64,000 nt of DNA from a virus. The position numbers and the translations under genes were made by a program. The notes under the pieces were generated by a model. It saw only the letters and a list, made by a program, of their open reading frames with translations. It had not been told where the DNA came from and made no database searches. The stretch spans positions 32,831 to 96,830 of IMG/VR virus record IMGVR_UViG_3300042987_004038. One strand, written 5' to 3'. Below, one piece after another: positions 32,601-55,106 of this stretch (positions within the stretch are counted from its first letter, which is position 1; every line of letters begins with the position of its first letter).

Positions 32601-33127
32601 ATGTTCCTAATAAATCAGATCCGGGTTACGTAGTAACAGGTCCTGCATATGAAATATACGATGTTAATGAAATAGTTGATGACATAAGATTTGCAATTGA
32701 GCATTCAATAGTAAAGGCGCTTAACGAAGACATGATTTCTACGATTGGAGACACGCAGTACCTTGATAATTCTCTAGGTCGACCAGAATACATGTTCTCC
32801 GATTCTTATCCAGATCTTGATCATTTTTCAAATGTCTATTTCAATCGATTGACTGGAAAACTTGACATTATGAAAACATATGAAGTCTTTAGATGGGTTG
32901 ATGTCGCCTTGACCGACTTGGTTGAGTCAATACTTCCAAAAAGAACAAAATTTATGGGAATTAATTATATCATAGAATCACACTTGATAGAAAGAGCAAA
33001 ACTGAGATATAGGTCAGAAGACATGTTTATTCTCTCTCAAATTGATCCTCTTTATGAGAAAAGTGCAATTCTAAGAAAAGAAAGCCTTCTAACTACAAAC
33101 CTATCTGGAATAATAAAGAGACTATGA
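29654..33127 (+). CDS. Large LamG-containing baseplate wedge protein (possible gp7 analogue)
   Basis: A 1157-residue protein. Two LamG/concanavalin-A-like domains are visible: about 165-320 (FEIELHLYVPEVFNDNQIVV, then HVRACLFNTDNG, FVYLDDKL) and about 690-880 (GSFSIEASVIFD, GERWTVGIEK). Between them, near 545-585, lies RDDLWRRILANMPYVNSSKG with TKSAVRSIF, a motif shared with tail/baseplate proteins that connect wedges to the tail (gpI-like). This region of the genome in T4 holds gp7 and gp8, but the equivalence is inference. Overlaps the next gene by ATGA. Confidence 0.58.
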   Translation: MPRLRTKPPVFRSKKTQTVTNSVKRDISNVSLQGRDTSNENFFLDSYKTGFKSTQQLALDFSQFKNHTFFSPARAKVDVALFKSINEFPFTGSITEIDKFLVGLTGFERYVFDSIPRNTGYLFFSGTQVGETSGGTYIDVSPISGHEFPNSPGATAEQALVINGSPFEIELHLYVPEVFNDNQIVVQRLQDEAGYTLALSSSLSSNECKIVFLVSSASDSYLVASGTLEKGNFSHVRACLFNTDNGKQSFVYLDDKLISSSSDTQDFGSLVFDTSSLIIGSGSRHTILDYDFLPRQTLSGAIDEFRFFSKQRDEETISKFSKSQMFATGGLEAYFRFDEPAGNYSMKDIVLDHSGRCLHSRILNYIPVLRVTSSISVPLYSQNPYFSPVLYPDFVPFSSRITDLISSASSYDNENPNIVTNLVPIHYLVESANAAGLQSVSSGIGVFPSIVDLPGTGEIPETSALLRTLIMMSIPLDEIKQFIDSMSTLLAVELGNEEKLNSQMIKFAGDYFGIDLPNFFSKSTTNQFSFGEDVSETGYFEYTLRALRDDLWRRILANMPYVNSSKGTKSAVRSIFLSSGIIPENFFVIREFGQSGETRLADLRDYSVEVSSMLDFSSSLGTPTGQFIPPGVRTNSPRIISPFLSASRVETGIPRITGNFVSKDLFPPHGISNNPNDGLLTSGSFSIEASVIFDRKIKHDITQSIFRIITTGSASPNDFLVGNLFYRSESPETGSLVFATRPTFEPGTVAPEPLVMSIPGINLFDGERWTVGIEKIRGDVIGTTSSSYTLRCARQVGDYLDFFSTSSLYSDYSVLPNQSVFLNRSSLYNASGSYLIIGSQSITPNTRFLNGYESYLGTKFSGKISGIKFFSSKIGNKSFIEHARNFASIGTDNPEIGLGFDLVQTGAFERLRIDASCDQATTGTDSIGNILIFDFSQNGLHLSGSGFPPSRSVVSPQTLNINRISPRFDLQQVANKVRPRGLDVPNKSDPGYVVTGPAYEIYDVNEIVDDIRFAIEHSIVKALNEDMISTIGDTQYLDNSLGRPEYMFSDSYPDLDHFSNVYFNRLTGKLDIMKTYEVFRWVDVALTDLVESILPKRTKFMGINYIIESHLIERAKLRYRSEDMFILSQIDPLYEKSAILRKESLLTTNLSGIIKRL

Positions 33128-47198: not shown

Positions 47199-49586
47199 AT
47201 GTCTGTTATCGAGATCAGCCCAGACCTCGTAGAGGTGACAACACTGGTTTTGCAACCAAGCCAGTCTTTTTCATCTTCGTCTCTTGGCATGCAAGGTGCA
47301 ATTAGAATCTACTCAAAGCCCACAAACTCTCTAAAAAGCTTTTCCGGGATTAGTTCCACAAATGCTTATACAGAGACTTCTGGTGTGACTGAAGATGATG
47401 ATCTTCTGTACAATGCAAGCCAGCAATATATTTCTGGTGCTACATCTATTTTTAAACAAATGGACGCTTACATCAGAAATGTTTCAACAGCTGATGTAAG
47501 CAGCAGACAGTTTATCCAGACATTTCCTGTTAGAATGTTTTCTCCGCCGAGTGTCACTCCTACAACATTTACCGACTCAGACGGAGACGGAGAAGTAGAT
47601 TCTGATTCTGTACCGCAGGACAGAAGCGAATGGACAAATTTCCAGCGTAGAAATATTAGTAAATTCTTAATGCTGGAACAAAGAACACAAAATCATTTGT
47701 CTTTTAATGCTTATGTGAATTACAATAGCTTGAATTTTGTCTCATCGAGTAATTTTGGAACAAGTTCAGCTCTCATTTTTCCAAATTTTCCAGATGCAAA
47801 CGGGACGAGAGATTATACTCCTGATGGTCCTTTTACTCTGGACTTCTTCATAAAGCCTCGGGCGCCTATTGATGAAATTGAACATTTTAGGGCAGGAACA
47901 GTCTTTCATATTTCTTCGTCAATATGCGTTTCTCTTGTAAGTGGATCAAGTCTAGCTTCGGATAGAAAGCCAGACAAATTTAGGATACTTCTGCAGCTAA
48001 GCCAGAGCGCTGATATTCCTCCCTCCCAGATACATCTTGGTTCTCTTCCTGCATCCTCGCCTTTAGATCTTGCTTTTGTTACGCCGGAATTTCTTCAAAG
48101 AGACAAGTGGAGCAGAGTTACAATTCGATGGGGTGCAAAAAATAGAAACTTTGGAACCGGGTCTATACGGGTTGATAATAACATAACAAATTTTTCTTCA
48201 AGAACAGATTCTATCAAGACTGGGCTTAATAGCAACGCAGTTGTCATAGGGAACTACTACGACAGCGGCGACAGAATTGCAAAGTTTTTTAATTCAAATG
48301 CATCATTGAAATATGGAACTCTGGAAGATCCTATTCCGGGAACGAATGATCCTGCTGGTTTTTCATTTAGCAACCCTTTAAATGCTGAAGTTCATCACAT
48401 TTCACTTTTCAAGAGATTTCTCACAGACTCGGAAATTACAAACATCAATGACCTTTTTGTAGAGACTCCAGGCGCAAAAGGTCCCGCCTTTTTCTTACCC
48501 CCTTTCTTTACTTCATCAATCCCATCTGATGGTGTTACAACTTACATCACCCCTAATGTGCTTGCAACTGTTGATACAGACAGCCCAGTGTCATACCAGC
48601 TTGCGCTAGGATATAATTCAACATTTGTAAATCTCCAAAATTTTGTAGTTGATTTTGCTAGATCTAGGCAGTCACGTGCTTACAACATGTCGGATGGAGT
48701 TGCTGTTCCAACTGCTTTTGATTCCAGAGATGGCACCATTGACCAGCTTCTGATGTTGCAGAGACAAAATAGAGCTAGAAATTTTTTCATACTGCCCTGC
48801 GATGATGGATTTTTTGAGCCAAGCTTTGAGATTCTTGATAGTGATAATTCAAGATTTCAAAATATTGGAGCTTCAAAATCTACAATGCTTATATCGATGG
48901 ATGCCCTTGCTCCCCCAGGAGAGATCTCTGAGGGGGGTGTGTACATACGCGGCGCGGAGTTTTCTGATTTTTCATATGATGGATCTGATTCTCCTTATTT
49001 GCCGCTGTATCAAAACATAAGCTACGGAACAGTTGGGCTACCCGACAACAGTTCCAATAGAATGCTTGTTTTCACAATACCAAGTCTCTACTACATGTCA
49101 AGAATCATCCCAGAATCTTTTGTCCTAACAGATAGCAATATCTCATATTCAGGCGGGATTTCAATGACATTGAAAGATGATGGAAGAGGAAATATCTACA
49201 GATGCGACGCTGTTTCTAAACCAGCAAAATGGAATAGAGTTGGCGCGATCTTCTATAATCACGGAATTGTTGCTTTAATATCTCCGCATCTTTCATTTTT
49301 TGGAAGAAATTCGTATGAGATGTCATTTAGAGGAGAAATGAGAAAAACAATTGCAAATTTCTCAGTCCCGGCGCCGCCTAGCGCTTTCAATAAGTCTCAA
49401 AATCCAACCTGGCAATCTTTCCCACCAACAAATCTAAAATCAGAGCAAGCAAAAGAATTCAATTATATCTCAGGAATAAATCTTCACGATGATAATTTCA
49501 ACGTAGTGATGCGAGCTAGACTTGCACAGGTTGTTCAAAAAAGAGAAGGCGACGAAATAGTCTTTAGAATAAGATATGACTTCTAG
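47199..49586 (+). CDS. Virion protein with LamG-like domain and shared C-terminal motif
   Basis: A 795-residue protein with GAGGTGG ribosome binding site. Residues about 205-400 form a LamG/ConA-like sandwich: PDGPFTLDFFIKPRAPIDEI, then VFHISSSICVSLVSGS, DKWSRVTIRWGAKNRNFGTG. Near residue 127 there is DSDGDGEVDSD, a calcium-loop-like run. The C-terminus (NYISGINLHDDNFNVVMRAR then LAQVVQKREGDEIVFRIRYD) matches the last 45 residues of the previous gene. A glycan-binding virion protein is plausible. It overlaps the RuvC-like gene by 11 bases. Confidence 0.58.
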   Translation: MSVIEISPDLVEVTTLVLQPSQSFSSSSLGMQGAIRIYSKPTNSLKSFSGISSTNAYTETSGVTEDDDLLYNASQQYISGATSIFKQMDAYIRNVSTADVSSRQFIQTFPVRMFSPPSVTPTTFTDSDGDGEVDSDSVPQDRSEWTNFQRRNISKFLMLEQRTQNHLSFNAYVNYNSLNFVSSSNFGTSSALIFPNFPDANGTRDYTPDGPFTLDFFIKPRAPIDEIEHFRAGTVFHISSSICVSLVSGSSLASDRKPDKFRILLQLSQSADIPPSQIHLGSLPASSPLDLAFVTPEFLQRDKWSRVTIRWGAKNRNFGTGSIRVDNNITNFSSRTDSIKTGLNSNAVVIGNYYDSGDRIAKFFNSNASLKYGTLEDPIPGTNDPAGFSFSNPLNAEVHHISLFKRFLTDSEITNINDLFVETPGAKGPAFFLPPFFTSSIPSDGVTTYITPNVLATVDTDSPVSYQLALGYNSTFVNLQNFVVDFARSRQSRAYNMSDGVAVPTAFDSRDGTIDQLLMLQRQNRARNFFILPCDDGFFEPSFEILDSDNSRFQNIGASKSTMLISMDALAPPGEISEGGVYIRGAEFSDFSYDGSDSPYLPLYQNISYGTVGLPDNSSNRMLVFTIPSLYYMSRIIPESFVLTDSNISYSGGISMTLKDDGRGNIYRCDAVSKPAKWNRVGAIFYNHGIVALISPHLSFFGRNSYEMSFRGEMRKTIANFSVPAPPSAFNKSQNPTWQSFPPTNLKSEQAKEFNYISGINLHDDNFNVVMRARLAQVVQKREGDEIVFRIRYDF

Positions 49587-50109
49587 AAAAATATTAGGAC
49601 TGGATATTTCTACATCTTGCACGGGATTGTGTTGCTTAGACGATAATGGGACGATTGTTTTAATTGAACCAATCGTCTTGACCTCTCACAAGACATTTGT
49701 TGAAAAATGTAATTTAATAAAAGAGAGCCTTGAGAGTGTAAAGAGAGAACACAAAATCACAGATGTATTTATAGAGCAAAATTTAAGCTCTTTTAGGCGA
49801 GGTCTTTCTTCTGCACACACTATCAACACACTTGCAAGATTCAACGGTGCATGTAGTTTTATCGCATACCAGGTCCTTGGAGTCGATCCGATCTCTTTGA
49901 ATGTTACAAATGCTAGAAACCATCTTAAAATAAAGATTGATCACAAGGACAAGACTCGAAACACAAAGCAGAAAGTTTTTGAATGGGTTGATTCAAAGAT
50001 TCACGTAGAGTGGCCACGCAAGAAGAACGGAGACATTAGAGAGACAGCGTATGACATGGCAGATGCATATGTGATAGCAATGGCAGGGCTGATGGGTTGT
50101 AAAGAGTAA
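49576..50109 (+). CDS. RuvC-like Holliday-junction resolvase
   Basis: A 177-residue RNase H-fold nuclease. RuvC-type acidic residues are visible: D10 in KILGLDISTSCTG, E67 in DVFIEQNLSS, and D160/D163 in AYDMADAYVIA. Lys-rich KIDHKDKTRNTKQKVFEWVD before the last motif fits a DNA-binding helix. It would cut four-way junctions before packaging, the job done in T4 by endonuclease VII (gp49). Coupled to the next, primase-like gene by a 14-base gap and to the upstream gene by overlap. Confidence 0.85.
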   Translation: MTSRKILGLDISTSCTGLCCLDDNGTIVLIEPIVLTSHKTFVEKCNLIKESLESVKREHKITDVFIEQNLSSFRRGLSSAHTINTLARFNGACSFIAYQVLGVDPISLNVTNARNHLKIKIDHKDKTRNTKQKVFEWVDSKIHVEWPRKKNGDIRETAYDMADAYVIAMAGLMGCKE

Positions 50110-50123
50110 TTCTCCTAGTAAAA

Positions 50124-51095
50124 TTGTTTGTGCAAACAACAATAACTGATCGTGTCAGATTTATTGAGAAAGTCTTTGGAAAGGGTGTCATTGCTAGAAG
50201 CGGTGAGGACATAGCAGTTTCGTGTCCAGTTTGCAATGATACAAAAAAGAAAAAGCTCTCAATATCTCTTAAAAGCTGGAGTTTTCATTGTTGGGTATGC
50301 AACGAAAAAGGGAGAACATTAGTCCCACTAATTAGAAAGACAAAGAGCAGAGAAACTCTTGAAGTCTATAAGCGGGATTTTTTAAATCTAAAATCTTTCC
50401 ATGAAAGCGAAGATGCCAAAGAAGATGAGGTGTTTTCATATCCCGAGGGGTTTGTTCCCGTCGTAAATCTTCTTGATTCAAGGCTTCCAAACGTTAGATC
50501 TGTTATATCTTATCTAAAATCTCGCGGTTTAAAAGAGGCAGATTTTTATAGATACAGAGTCGGAATGACTCCGGCAGGAAAAGACCCTAGACGCGTATTC
50601 TTCATATCTCTTGATGAAGAGGGTAATGAAAACTTTTTTGTTTCAAGAAGCATTGACGATCAATCAAAGTATCGGTATGTAAATTCAAAGGTTGATAAAA
50701 CTTCTATCATCTTTAATGAATGTGATATTGACTGGAATGAGCCAATTTTTCTAGTGGAAGGAGTTTTTGATCAAATTAGTCTATCTAAAAATAGCGCAGT
50801 GCTTCTTGGGTCAACACTTCCCGCTTCAAGTCTTCTTTTCAGAAAGCTAGTGCTCAATGAAGCACATGTGATTATCAGTCTTGATCCCGATGCAAAGAAG
50901 AAGTCGAAAGAAATCGCTGATTCTTTGACTGAATATGGGTGCAAGGTCCAAATTATGGACATTCAAGATTCAAAAGATCTAGGAAGTATGTCTCAACAGC
51001 AGATCAGTGAAGCAATGAAGAATATTTCAGACTGGAATCCAAAGACTTCGCTGCTAACAAAGATAAATTCAATTAGAAGTGGATCGATTTTGTGA
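50124..51095 (+). CDS. DNA primase-like, zinc ribbon plus TOPRIM
   Basis: A 323-residue protein resembling DnaG-type primase cores. The zinc ribbon is C34-P-V-C37 ... C56-W-V-C59; the TOPRIM part has E212 in FLVEGVFDQIS and D254-P-D256 in ISLDPDAKKK. Synthesises RNA primers in the phage replisome. The start is uncertain: TTG at 50124 or GTG at 50130, neither with a strong ribosome binding site. A helicase is not next to it. T4 gp61 is similar in size (342 residues). Confidence 0.82.
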   Translation: MFVQTTITDRVRFIEKVFGKGVIARSGEDIAVSCPVCNDTKKKKLSISLKSWSFHCWVCNEKGRTLVPLIRKTKSRETLEVYKRDFLNLKSFHESEDAKEDEVFSYPEGFVPVVNLLDSRLPNVRSVISYLKSRGLKEADFYRYRVGMTPAGKDPRRVFFISLDEEGNENFFVSRSIDDQSKYRYVNSKVDKTSIIFNECDIDWNEPIFLVEGVFDQISLSKNSAVLLGSTLPASSLLFRKLVLNEAHVIISLDPDAKKKSKEIADSLTEYGCKVQIMDIQDSKDLGSMSQQQISEAMKNISDWNPKTSLLTKINSIRSGSIL

Positions 51096-51107: not shown

Positions 51108-51392
51108 ATGAAAAACGTAAGACACGCAATTCGATCAATTCTTGCCGATGACGCCCTATATCGAAGAGAAGACATTCCGGGAGATGTAGACGATCCACCT
51201 GACAGTGGGTGCGGATGCAAATCAGAATGTCATTGTGAAGAGGATTTCGTCACGCCAAAATACGCGCTTTACAGTCTTATAGGAGACGCCATCAGGATGT
51301 ATGACCAGATGGAATCAGAAAGCACTGGCAACCCAGAGATTGACGATCTAATAGTCAACATTGCACGAGAGATAAAAAGAACAGTCGGTTGA
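51108..51392 (+). CDS. Small Cys-rich protein, unknown
   Basis: A 94-residue acidic protein. A cluster GCGCKSECHCEED near residues 38-50 has four Cys and a His, suggesting a metal site. The rest (ALYSLIGDAIRMYDQMESES) is helical. No family known to me. It precedes the Mre11-Rad50 fusion by 31 bases with no terminator, so co-expression is likely. No ribosome binding site of consensus type. Confidence 0.55.
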   Translation: MKNVRHAIRSILADDALYRREDIPGDVDDPPDSGCGCKSECHCEEDFVTPKYALYSLIGDAIRMYDQMESESTGNPEIDDLIVNIAREIKRTVG

Positions 51393-51423
51393 ATAAGAAC
51401 CCAAAGATGTGTATGATTGTCTC

Positions 51424-54400
51424 ATGAAGATTGCACACTTTGCTGACGTCCATTTTCGAGGACTTGCGCGTCATTCTGAATATCGCGAGGCTTTTGAGGA
51501 CGCATTCAAAACACTGCGCCAGATTAAGCCAGATTTAATCTATATTGGCGGTGATATTGTTCATTCAAAAACCCAGGGGATTACTCCAGAGCTCATTGAC
51601 GTACTTCGGTGGTGGTTTAAATCGCTAGCCAGCATTGCTCCTGTTGATGTTCTCCTGGGAAACCATGATGGACTCATAATGAACAAACAGCGGCTTGATG
51701 CTGTGTCACCCATTGTTGAGGCGCTTGGTGATCCAAGAATTCGACTTCTCAAAAAGTCTGGTGTCTATTCGACGCAAGACCCGGGTGTTACTTTTTGTGT
51801 TTTCTCTCTCTTTGACCAGGAAGGGTGGAAGTCGGTCTCACCGATACCGGGAAAAATCAATATTGCTCTCTACCACGGATCTGTAAGGGGCGCGCTATCT
51901 GACACTGATTATGAGCTTGAGGGTGAGATAACGACAGGATTCTTTGAGAACTATGATTTCACTTTACTAGGCGACATACACAAGCGACAGTTTCTGAATA
52001 AGCAGAGAACCATTGCCTATTGTGGGTCAACAATTCAGCAGAACTATGCTGAAGAGAAAACAAAAGGATTCTTGCTCTGGGATATTAGATCTCACGATAA
52101 TTTCGATGTCACTTTTCACCCTGTCAAGAATGTGCATCCATTTGTGACAGTCACATGGAGGGATAATGCTGATACCAATCAGCTCCTTAGGGAGATACCA
52201 GAGAGGTCACGTGTTAGATTTGATATTCAATCAAGAGACACTGATGGGCTCAGGAGCTTCTGTTCTCTTGTTGAGTCATCTCTCTCTCCTGTTGAGATAA
52301 CATACAAGACCCAGACAGATAAATCAGGACCAGCAGAGAGTCCGACTGAGGAGATAAAGTCGATAGACGTCAAGCAGGCATTGGTAGATTTTATCAACAG
52401 GAGATCTCTACCATCTCAGGTGAATGAGGAAGCACTCAAAAAGCTTGATTATTACCTTGCTTCTCGAGATGGTGCGGAGGATGCTGTTAGGAATGTCAAG
52501 TGGGACCTAAAGCGCCTCGAGTTTAACAATCTCTTCTCTTATGGTGAGAACAACTACATTGACTTTGACGTCATGCCTGGGATTACGGGAATCTTTGGCA
52601 AGAACAGGTCTGGAAAGTCATCCATCATCGGTTCAATAACCTACTGCCTATTCAACACGACTGACCGTGGTAGCATGAAGAATCTTCATATTATCAATTC
52701 AAAGAAGAATGCATGCAGCGCAAAGGCGAGAGTATCTGTTTCTTCAGATGAATATGAGATCTCACGTGAGACAGTCAAGAATTTTCCCAAGAAGGGCGAA
52801 GTCTGGGCCAGCACGACGCTGTCTGTCACAAAACTCGGTGATGACGAAGAGAGTCACGTTGATCTGAACGATGAACAACGCCGTGAGACTGAAAAGGTCC
52901 TGCGCAAACTAATCGGCAATTCAGATGATTTCTTCTACACTTGCCTTGCTCCGCAGGGAAATATGAATCTCTTCATCAATGAGAAATCGACAGCTCGCAA
53001 GCAGATGCTGACTCGATTCCTTGACATTGACTACTTTGAGGAGCTTCACAACCGGGTCAAGTCTGATATCTCGCCCTATAGGGCGAGGCTCAAGGGTGCC
53101 GGTTCTGAGCAGGAGTGCAAAAATCAGATAGCTGAGCGCCAGAAAAAGATTGAGGACCTTGAGGCGCTCAAGAAGGCTTGCCGGGAGGAAGCAGAGCGGC
53201 TGAGAAGTCTGATATCGGACATCACGATGAAGATCTCACCTGATGTCGTCAACGATAGAAAGGAAATGGGACGACTTCAGTCATCTCGAGATTCTCTTAT
53301 TAGCGATATTGCGCGGATTGAGAATGAGATTAAGTCTGAGGAGAGCACACAGGAAGCTGTTAAGTCGAAGCATGAACGTGCAAAGACAGTTCTAGAGTCT
53401 GTCAATTTTGATGAGCTTCAAAAGTCTGCCAACGACCAACGTGACATCACGCGTCAAATCGAGTCTGAGGAACGCGATCTCAGGTCCAAGAAGCGCGAGA
53501 GAGACATCCTGACAAAGTCTGTTGAACTTCTAAGTCAGGTCCCATGTCATGGTCAGTATCCTAGCTGCCAATTCATCTGTGATTCACACAGAAACAAGGA
53601 GAGGCTTCCTGGCATCGACTCACAGATCAGCGCCAAGGACAGGTCAATCAGTATCCTCAGGAATAGATCTACGACCCTAGAGAAGGATGACCCGACCACG
53701 TCTTTGCAGAAGGCTACCAAAATTCGAGACCTCGAGAAGGACCTAAAGGTCGAGATTGAGCGGCACGAATCAAAGCTGGGAATTCTTAGAGAACGTATTA
53801 AGAACAAGCGCACAGATCTTCAGCAAGTAGAGACTCGGCTGAGGGAGATACAGCAGAAGATCTCAGGCACAGACATTCCCGAGGACACGCGTCTTGATGA
53901 ATACAACGATTCACTCAAGCACGCAGAGAACATGTCAATCTCTCATGCAACTGATATCGGTGTTCAGACTGAAAAGATTAACCAGCTCAAGAAGCAGCTT
54001 GAGGAGATTAGCTCCTCGCAGGATGCCATGCGCGTCCTTGAGACGCTCGAATCGGCTTTCTCAAAGAATGGCGTGCCACATGAAATTATCGCATCGGCAT
54101 TGCCACGAATCAATGCAGAGATCTCAGCGATTCTAGATGGAATTGCCGGTTTTACAGTTCAGATTGAATCAGATGATTCAAACTCCGTTGAGATTTACCT
54201 CAACTATGGTGACAACCGTCGACTGATTGAGCTAGGATCTGGAATGGAAAAGATGATATCCTCCATTGCCATTCGTGTTGCCCTCACCAATATCTCTGCT
54301 CTTCCAAAGTCAAGCATGTTCATCATCGATGAGGGATTTGGTGCACTTGATGACAGCAATCTTGAGGCATGCGCGCGCCTTCTGACCAATCTCAAGGGCT

Positions 54401-54507
54401 ACTTTAAGAACATCCTTATTATCTCACACGTTGATACAATTAAGGATGTTGTCGATAATGTTATCGATATCGGATGGGAAGATGGATTCGCAAGAGTCGC
54501 ATGCTAG
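51424..54507 (+). CDS. 47/46: Mre11-Rad50 (SbcD-SbcC; gp47-gp46) fusion nuclease-ATPase
   Basis: A 1027-residue single chain combining both subunits of the T4 gp47/gp46 recombination nuclease. The phosphoesterase half has D8-V-H10, GGD44, GNHD (79-82), H151 in YHGS and GDIHK (183-187). The ATPase half has Walker A GKNRSGKS (392-399), a coiled coil with Cys hook VPCHGQYPSCQFIC (C708, C715, C719), the ELGSGMEKM signature near 936, Walker B MFIIDEGFGALDD (965-977) and an ISHVD switch His. ATG 51424 is preferred over GTG 51409. It uses more C/G-ending codons than neighbours. It would process DNA ends for recombination-dependent replication. Confidence 0.93.
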   Translation: MKIAHFADVHFRGLARHSEYREAFEDAFKTLRQIKPDLIYIGGDIVHSKTQGITPELIDVLRWWFKSLASIAPVDVLLGNHDGLIMNKQRLDAVSPIVEALGDPRIRLLKKSGVYSTQDPGVTFCVFSLFDQEGWKSVSPIPGKINIALYHGSVRGALSDTDYELEGEITTGFFENYDFTLLGDIHKRQFLNKQRTIAYCGSTIQQNYAEEKTKGFLLWDIRSHDNFDVTFHPVKNVHPFVTVTWRDNADTNQLLREIPERSRVRFDIQSRDTDGLRSFCSLVESSLSPVEITYKTQTDKSGPAESPTEEIKSIDVKQALVDFINRRSLPSQVNEEALKKLDYYLASRDGAEDAVRNVKWDLKRLEFNNLFSYGENNYIDFDVMPGITGIFGKNRSGKSSIIGSITYCLFNTTDRGSMKNLHIINSKKNACSAKARVSVSSDEYEISRETVKNFPKKGEVWASTTLSVTKLGDDEESHVDLNDEQRRETEKVLRKLIGNSDDFFYTCLAPQGNMNLFINEKSTARKQMLTRFLDIDYFEELHNRVKSDISPYRARLKGAGSEQECKNQIAERQKKIEDLEALKKACREEAERLRSLISDITMKISPDVVNDRKEMGRLQSSRDSLISDIARIENEIKSEESTQEAVKSKHERAKTVLESVNFDELQKSANDQRDITRQIESEERDLRSKKRERDILTKSVELLSQVPCHGQYPSCQFICDSHRNKERLPGIDSQISAKDRSISILRNRSTTLEKDDPTTSLQKATKIRDLEKDLKVEIERHESKLGILRERIKNKRTDLQQVETRLREIQQKISGTDIPEDTRLDEYNDSLKHAENMSISHATDIGVQTEKINQLKKQLEEISSSQDAMRVLETLESAFSKNGVPHEIIASALPRINAEISAILDGIAGFTVQIESDDSNSVEIYLNYGDNRRLIELGSGMEKMISSIAIRVALTNISALPKSSMFIIDEGFGALDDSNLEACARLLTNLKGYFKNILIISHVDTIKDVVDNVIDIGWEDGFARVAC

Positions 54508-54730
54508 ATCGATGCCTTTTTTCTGTAGCATTTGTGAGTTTCCACACGATTTGAATAGAGACTGGCAATATTTTGAGAAATTTGAAATGTGTCAGGAATG
54601 TGCAATGACGCTGGTGGAAGCACGTCAAAATGAGTGGAAATTAGGCTGGAGACCAAGTCAGGACCAGATAGATATATATGTTAATGAAAGAATGCGCCTA
54701 GCAAGGCAATTGAGGGGATACAATGCTTAA
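54482..54730 (+). CDS. Small zinc-finger protein, unknown
   Basis: An 82-residue protein carrying two Cys pairs, CSIC and CQEC about 28 residues apart, a likely zinc ribbon, followed by a helical Arg-rich C-terminus (QDQIDIYVNERMRLARQLRG). Start uncertain: ATG at 54482, within the fusion gene and after GGATGGGAAG, is preferred; ATG at 54512 would give a protein starting MPFFCSICEF. Such proteins often bind DNA or RNA. It overlaps the next gene by 8 bases. Confidence 0.6.
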   Translation: MDSQESHARSMPFFCSICEFPHDLNRDWQYFEKFEMCQECAMTLVEARQNEWKLGWRPSQDQIDIYVNERMRLARQLRGYNA

Positions 54731-55106
54731 TATGCAGGACATAAACGTTCTGGGACAGATTTTAAATACAACATGGGGATCAAGTTCAACCGTTGTCTCT
54801 CCTAGATTTTCAATCAAGAGCACAATGAACGGAGAGATTCTTGTTCTCACCTACACGACTATTACAAATATAGTAATGGGAATAAATCCAAGAGATCAAG
54901 TAAAGGAGCAGGAGAGAGAGTCAGTTGAGACTATGAAGTCATATGTTAAGAAAGTTGAAAAAGAATTCAAAGAAGCTACTGGGAATTCACTCAAACTTAA
55001 AGAGACATCAACAGATGATTCAATAGAGATGATCTCTATGTCACCTCACAATCCGAAGCGCACTGCATATTATCGGAGAAAGTCGACTTACACGATCGGT
55101 GTTTAA
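54723..55106 (+). CDS. Unknown small protein before the terminase
   Basis: A 127-residue protein. N-terminal half is beta-like (LNTTWGSSSTVVSPRFSIKS), the middle is a charged helix (RDQVKEQERESVETMKSYVK) and the C-terminus reads MSPHNPKRTAYYRRKSTYTI. The strong conservation feel of that last stretch suggests a structural or packaging role, but I recognise no family. It sits between the zinc-finger gene and the terminase gene, whose GTG start follows directly on its stop. Confidence 0.55.
   Translation: MLNMQDINVLGQILNTTWGSSSTVVSPRFSIKSTMNGEILVLTYTTITNIVMGINPRDQVKEQERESVETMKSYVKKVEKEFKEATGNSLKLKETSTDDSIEMISMSPHNPKRTAYYRRKSTYTIGV

Follow-up and report, generated by a model that had tools for sequence, protein, structure and literature searches.

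The locus described here raises the question of whether an Mre11-like nuclease and a Rad50-like ATPase have genuinely been joined into one phage protein, and how such a single chain would work. It lies in the window, i.e., the whole 64,000-nt stretch of viral DNA analyzed (positions 32,831 to 96,830 of IMG/VR record IMGVR_UViG_3300042987_004038). Unless given with another contig, coordinates are those of the window, and features written as start..end lie on its plus strand.

The fusion gene and its genomic setting

The Mre11-Rad50 (SbcD-SbcC) fusion gene occupies 51424..54507 and runs from ATG to stop without an internal stop in its translation (1027 aa plus stop). An in-frame GTG at 51409 would give an alternative product of 1032 aa; the alignment of relatives begins at the ATG. 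Pfam searches placed Metallophos at residues 1-186 (E 9.7e-11) and AAA_23/SMC_N over residues 362-1016 (E 1.3e-14 and 1.7e-13), and PHROGs searches matched residues 1-341 to the SbcD-like phrog_100 and residues 355-1025 to the SbcC-like phrog_77. Translation, Pfam and PHROGs agree with the initial annotation, which had described a single unbroken frame of 1027 residues with Mre11 followed by Rad50. The 96.8-kb contig, a genome fragment, yielded one Rad50-type and one Mre11-type match, both within the fusion ORF, and no second Mre11 or Rad50 was seen on this part of the genome.

Just upstream of the fusion is a DNA primase-like gene (50124..51095; phrog_47, E 9.6e-38), which is itself preceded by a gene for a RuvC-like Holliday junction resolvase (49576..50109; phrog_159, E 2.5e-15). 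The order primase-like gene, then fusion, is common to the window, Microcystis phage Mel-JY01 and the uncultured phage LR756508. Terminase and portal genes lie downstream, and the terminase is closest to those of Mel-JY01, Flavobacterium and T4-like cyanophages. Small ORFs beside the fusion (51108-51392 and 54431-55106) gave no PHROG match.

To map the protein, an AF2 model of the single chain was built with 33 sequences (mean pLDDT 82.7, pTM 0.51); given this pTM, the relative placement of the two halves in the full model is not fixed. Foldseek searches with the model returned Mre11-Rad50 and SbcCD chains. The Mre11 phosphoesterase (nuclease) domain comprises residues 1-222 (51424..52089), as delimited by the Metallophos match, invariant columns and Foldseek matches to SbcD (4m0v/7dog, TMt 0.68-0.69). 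AF2 secondary structure and Foldseek place a capping domain at residues ~223-296 (52090..52311; edges approximate), the match to S. aureus SbcD 7dog taking in nuclease plus capping domain. The Rad50 half consists of an N-terminal ATPase lobe (residues 359-560; 52498..53103) containing Walker A (residues 392-399; 52597-52620), a coiled coil (residues ~561-880; 53104..54063; AF2 helices 562-879), and a C-terminal ATPase lobe (residues 881-1027; 54064..54504) containing Walker B and the D-loop (residues 965-977; 54316-54354). Both lobes were defined by Pfam, alignment and AF2, and the ABC signature reads LGSGMEKMISS.

The join is not an assembly artefact

An obvious alternative is that a sequencing or assembly error merged separate gp47 and gp46 genes. 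A search for similar fusions in phages, which the initial annotation had proposed, bears directly on this point. In a first scan of viral contigs we found 77 loci, and in 71 of them the single frame was either fully open or interrupted solely by the end of the contig; after a second scan, the total stood at at least 68 distinct full fused ORFs in environmental phages. In a maximum-likelihood tree, the fused sequences and those with the gene in pieces (see below) were split from two-gene sequences (T4, cyanophage, Ochrobactrum and Herelleviridae) by a branch with 100% support; the tree is a quick one with a short search and long branches, from which neither the root nor the number of fusion events can be read, and it does not include the proteins of Mimivirus R555 and Bacillus phage 0305phi8-36.

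The joint itself was compared in nine contigs. Identity over residues 316-358 was 56-90% at the amino acid level relative to near relatives, with no indels. Against the relative L002, identities at codon positions 1/2/3 were 75/78/56 for the helix-loop-helix (residues 316-347) and 90/100/45 for the connector that follows it, also without indels. Positions 1 and 2 are thus more conserved than position 3 across the joint, which is the pattern of a coding sequence, and by these comparisons the join is among the most conserved stretches. Since independent contigs carry the same frame, the joint is conserved with a coding pattern, and the clade is fully supported, the sequence evidence indicates that the join is genuine, and we consider the chance of an erroneous merger negligible.

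An apparent real-life case of such an error does exist. Listeria phage LMTA-57 (L080, 2917-5946) has a single 1009-aa ORF annotated as 'recombination exonuclease', and the stretch is one base shorter than that of near-identical siblings, which are annotated with two genes. Given this one-base difference, we dropped LMTA-57 as evidence of a second natural fusion.

Searches of cellular genome contigs returned fused-type matches on five MAG contigs (four full length and one ended by the contig), which are possibly binned phage DNA; other matches there were distant. On L177 (Halobacteriovorax MAG contig PBIO01000013.1, 109 kb), which is possibly phage and possibly a host lead for the clade, the fused gene is 41% identical.

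Relationship to known fusions and two-gene systems

The kind of fusion has been known since 2011, and the window gene adds another member. Yoshida, Claverie and Ogata described Mre11/Rad50 fusions in Mimivirus (R555), bacteria, plasmids, eukaryotes and Bacillus phage 0305phi8-36, reported that R555-like genes are abundant in aquatic viral metagenomes, and noted that metagenome scaffolds with such genes also carry genes similar to phage primases (Yoshida et al., 2011; PMC3175470). The position of the window gene beside a primase-like gene fits these scaffolds. Like the published fusions, it has an Mre11-like N-terminal and a Rad50-like C-terminal part in one ORF, a capping domain and helix-loop-helix, a short connector, and an aquatic phage context; relative to them, the present set provides complete phage genes with near-full alignment. 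The statement in the initial annotation that the two proteins are separate in T4 and in bacteria therefore holds for T4 and not for bacteria, where fusions have been published. Similarly, the existence of many phages with the same fusion, which that annotation had regarded as counting against its finding, largely removes the novelty of the gene and leaves its reality untouched. No later descriptions of fused phage SbcCD were found in the largely open-access literature searched.

Among isolated phages, Mel-JY01 carries one fused ORF of 1067 aa (WWT39521.1) downstream of the same primase-like gene; it differs from the window protein in its CxxC-type hook and in sequence (29.6% identity), and is annotated only as 'AAA domain containing protein'. 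T4 gp47 and gp46 have the same domains and, presumably, the same role as the fusion, but belong to a separate clade, have a CPTC hook, and are encoded by two genes separated by 46.1 and 46.2, whereas the window has a single frame. The E. coli SbcCD head complex (6s6v, 7yzo) is alike in the fold of both halves and differs in being made of two separate chains.

The joint retains putative docking helices

The initial annotation had treated residues of about 230 to 360 as a linker and suggested that fusion may remove the need for the C-terminal helices of Mre11 that bind Rad50. AF2 showed the supposed linker to be mostly folded: the capping domain reaches residue ~296, pLDDT is below 50 at 297-311, two helices span 316-326 and 331-347, and the Rad50 half opens with a strand from 359. 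Between the capping domain and the helices is a disordered, variable tether of 19 residues (297-315; 52312..52368), which is only 10-26% identical in relatives. The helix-loop-helix (52369..52464), which we regard as the Rad50-binding domain because a module of this kind contacts Rad50 in two-gene systems, is 56-65% identical in five relatives. A connector of 11 residues by AF2 boundaries (348-358; 52465..52497; 63-90% identical in relatives) then leads into Rad50, and its length agrees with the 9-12 residues estimated to bridge the Mre11 C terminus and the Rad50 N terminus in the T. maritima complex (PMC3175470).

By eye, the C terminus of T4 gp47 resembles the helix-loop-helix of the fusion (LMEEYINAIPDITDSDREALIQYANQLYVEATQ against LVDFINRRSLPSQVNEEALKKLDYYLASRD). 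Because the local profile alignment to T4 gp47 ended at residue 298, short of the C-terminal helices, E. coli SbcD was used instead. A family profile of 16 sequences aligned to residues 215-392 of SbcD in the SbcCD head structures (E 4e-4), a range that covers the helix-loop-helix and extends into the C-terminal region of SbcD. Judged by the predicted helices and this homology, the fusion would do away with the interval that separates gp47 from gp46 while keeping the docking module. The suggestion that the linker has replaced the docking helices, so that the protein works by tethering alone, draws on the variability of the tether and on the argument that a higher local concentration could in principle relax docking. 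However, both helices are predicted, the helix-loop-helix is conserved, and homology extends to SbcD residue 392; hence we find this suggestion improbable. Capping domain and helix-loop-helix are also retained in the fusions described in 2011, for which the same conclusion on the docking helices was reached (PMC3175470). The docking helices thus appear, from model and homology, to be kept in the fusion rather than dispensed with, which corrects the idea that joining the two proteins makes them unnecessary.

Mre11 active site and Rad50 hook

The initial annotation credited the protein with all Mre11 metal motifs. D8, H10, D44, N80, H151 and H186 are indeed present, but where P. furiosus Mre11 has His206 the protein carries Asp184, which is invariant in 33 aligned sequences. 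The same His-to-Asp change has been reported for R555, by published description (PMC3175470).

The cysteines of the proposed hook at 708-719 are likewise present, but alignment of relatives shows a variant spacing, C708-x6-C715 (53545..53568), rather than CxxC. In the AF2 model, long helices (662-705 and 719-755) lie on either side of the hook loop. A P-C-x6-C hook was found in 59 of 62 members of the fused clade, a CxxC hook in Mel-JY01 and LR756508, and CPxC in all five two-gene rows; the fusion thus lacks the CxxC zinc hook of the T4 gp46/gp47 type. Since the CXXC motif has been called highly conserved in Rad50 (PMC9569753), the conserved C-x6-C arrangement of this clade, a hook predicted from sequence, departs from the rule. 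The 2011 description mentions neither this hook nor genes in pieces; the words hook, zinc, CXXC, homing and split are all absent from its text (PMC3175470). The C-x6-C hook and the Mre11 genes in pieces described below look newer than the fusion itself, and these side results matter more than it does.

A proposed single-chain nuclease-ATPase

We conclude that the gene product is very probably a functional single-chain Mre11-Rad50 nuclease-ATPase from an aquatic phage related to T4, and the predicted counterpart of T4 gp47 plus gp46. The initial annotation's fixed 1:1 chain is supported. Two chains, each supplying one nuclease half and one ATPase half, would pair through Mre11 and through ATP-clamped Rad50 heads, such that a homodimer would form an M2R2-like particle. 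Within each chain the helix-loop-helix would dock in cis at the root of the coiled coil in that chain's Rad50 half, and the connector would cover the small remaining distance to the Rad50 N terminus. The tether would allow the nuclease to move between an ATP-bound and a cutting state, in the manner of two-subunit SbcCD. Fusion would fix the subunit ratio and keep the pair together without replacing the docking interface. By analogy with T4, the role would be DNA-end resection for recombination-dependent replication, together with DNA degradation. Such an assembly and role are likely, as judged from T4 gp46/47 and SbcCD. The usual Mre11-Rad50 complex must be reconstituted from two subunits; a natural single chain with fixed stoichiometry would be a handy object for structural and single-molecule work.

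Alternatively, the fusion might be a precursor that is later cut, e.g., in the disordered and variable tether, the working complex then being two-chained. Some relatives have a physically cut gene, which would make an unbroken chain unnecessary in this family. However, since the tether sits between the capping domain and the helix-loop-helix, cleavage within it would put the docking helices with Rad50 and not with Mre11; moreover, the tether contains no conserved cleavage motif among the relatives compared, and the natural cuts in relatives sit elsewhere, at the Mre11 active-site hairpin. We therefore think it unlikely that the chain is processed, and favor the intact single chain.

Relatives with the Mre11 half in pieces

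At 38 loci (28 distinct head pieces), including L064 (6001-9223), L070 (2291-6448), L083, L089 and L103, the gene is cut within the nuclease domain after the GDIHK motif. The head piece ends in a conserved acidic tail (consensus RDVExxIDExDLxKYPGAEVxE), one tail being common to all 28 distinct pieces, and the second piece starts with a basic lead, KIKIKxKKPW. At most cut loci the stop codon of the first ORF simply overlaps or adjoins the start codon of the second. In L070, L106 and L108 a 300-aa ORF for a homing-family endonuclease lies between the pieces (L070-type: phrog_3339, E 4.1e-17). In a 484-kb uncultured phage (L081, LR756508.1, 2944-7169) the gene is likewise cut at the GDIHK motif, but the inter-piece endonuclease differs, with an HNH-like N part (phrog_1271) and a TnsA-like C part.

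The tree shows at least five changes between the cut and the uncut state. The C-terminal part of L070 is 84% identical to the uncut L042 and 55% to the cut L103, while L070 and L103 share 86% identity over 246 bases at the cut; these identities mark L070 as a mosaic in which an uncut-type gene contains a cut-type junction. When L083 was modeled by AF2 with its stop read through, long strands at 188-200 and 222-234 and a third at 211-216 were obtained (pLDDT 87-95), the natural stop falling in the turn between 211-216 and 222-234. Tail and lead are thus confidently predicted to form an extended sheet in the joined chain; because this chain was joined artificially, their pairing in trans is only inferred.

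These results raise the possibility, to which we give an even chance, that a mobile cassette splits Mre11, bringing a homing endonuclease and pairing acidic and basic docking strands. The cassette would insert at the hairpin directly after the active-site GDIHK motif, and the acidic strand-helix-strand tail of the first piece would pair with the basic strand of the second, re-assembling the split nuclease without splicing. Every one of the 21 tail matches in viral contigs falls within an Mre11 piece, which makes the tail specific to the Mre11 protein; its use as a general cassette on other genes was accordingly unsupported. Instead of being part of a cassette, the acidic tail could be an extension that the hairpin acquired long ago. 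A split intein at the cut was rejected as well, since the tail (~25 residues) and lead (~15 residues) are too short for one. Searches of the annotated phage collection gave no match to the tail consensus and one partial self-match to the LR756508 tail, a scarcity for which a low-complexity filter is probably responsible, and a PHROG search with the tail gave a match to phrog_1175 that was not significant.

Phage genes split by homing endonucleases into working two-piece enzymes are known for nrdA, gene 43 and topoisomerase genes, and how the split polypeptides re-assemble is a question left unanswered in a 2010 review of the mobile elements of T4 (PMC2988022). No report of such splitting of Mre11 was found in the largely open-access literature covered. 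The Mre11 genes in pieces offer a testable answer to the question left by that review. At locus L098 (5066-8233), the second piece is open far upstream (1056 aa from stop to stop) and overlaps the first piece in another frame.
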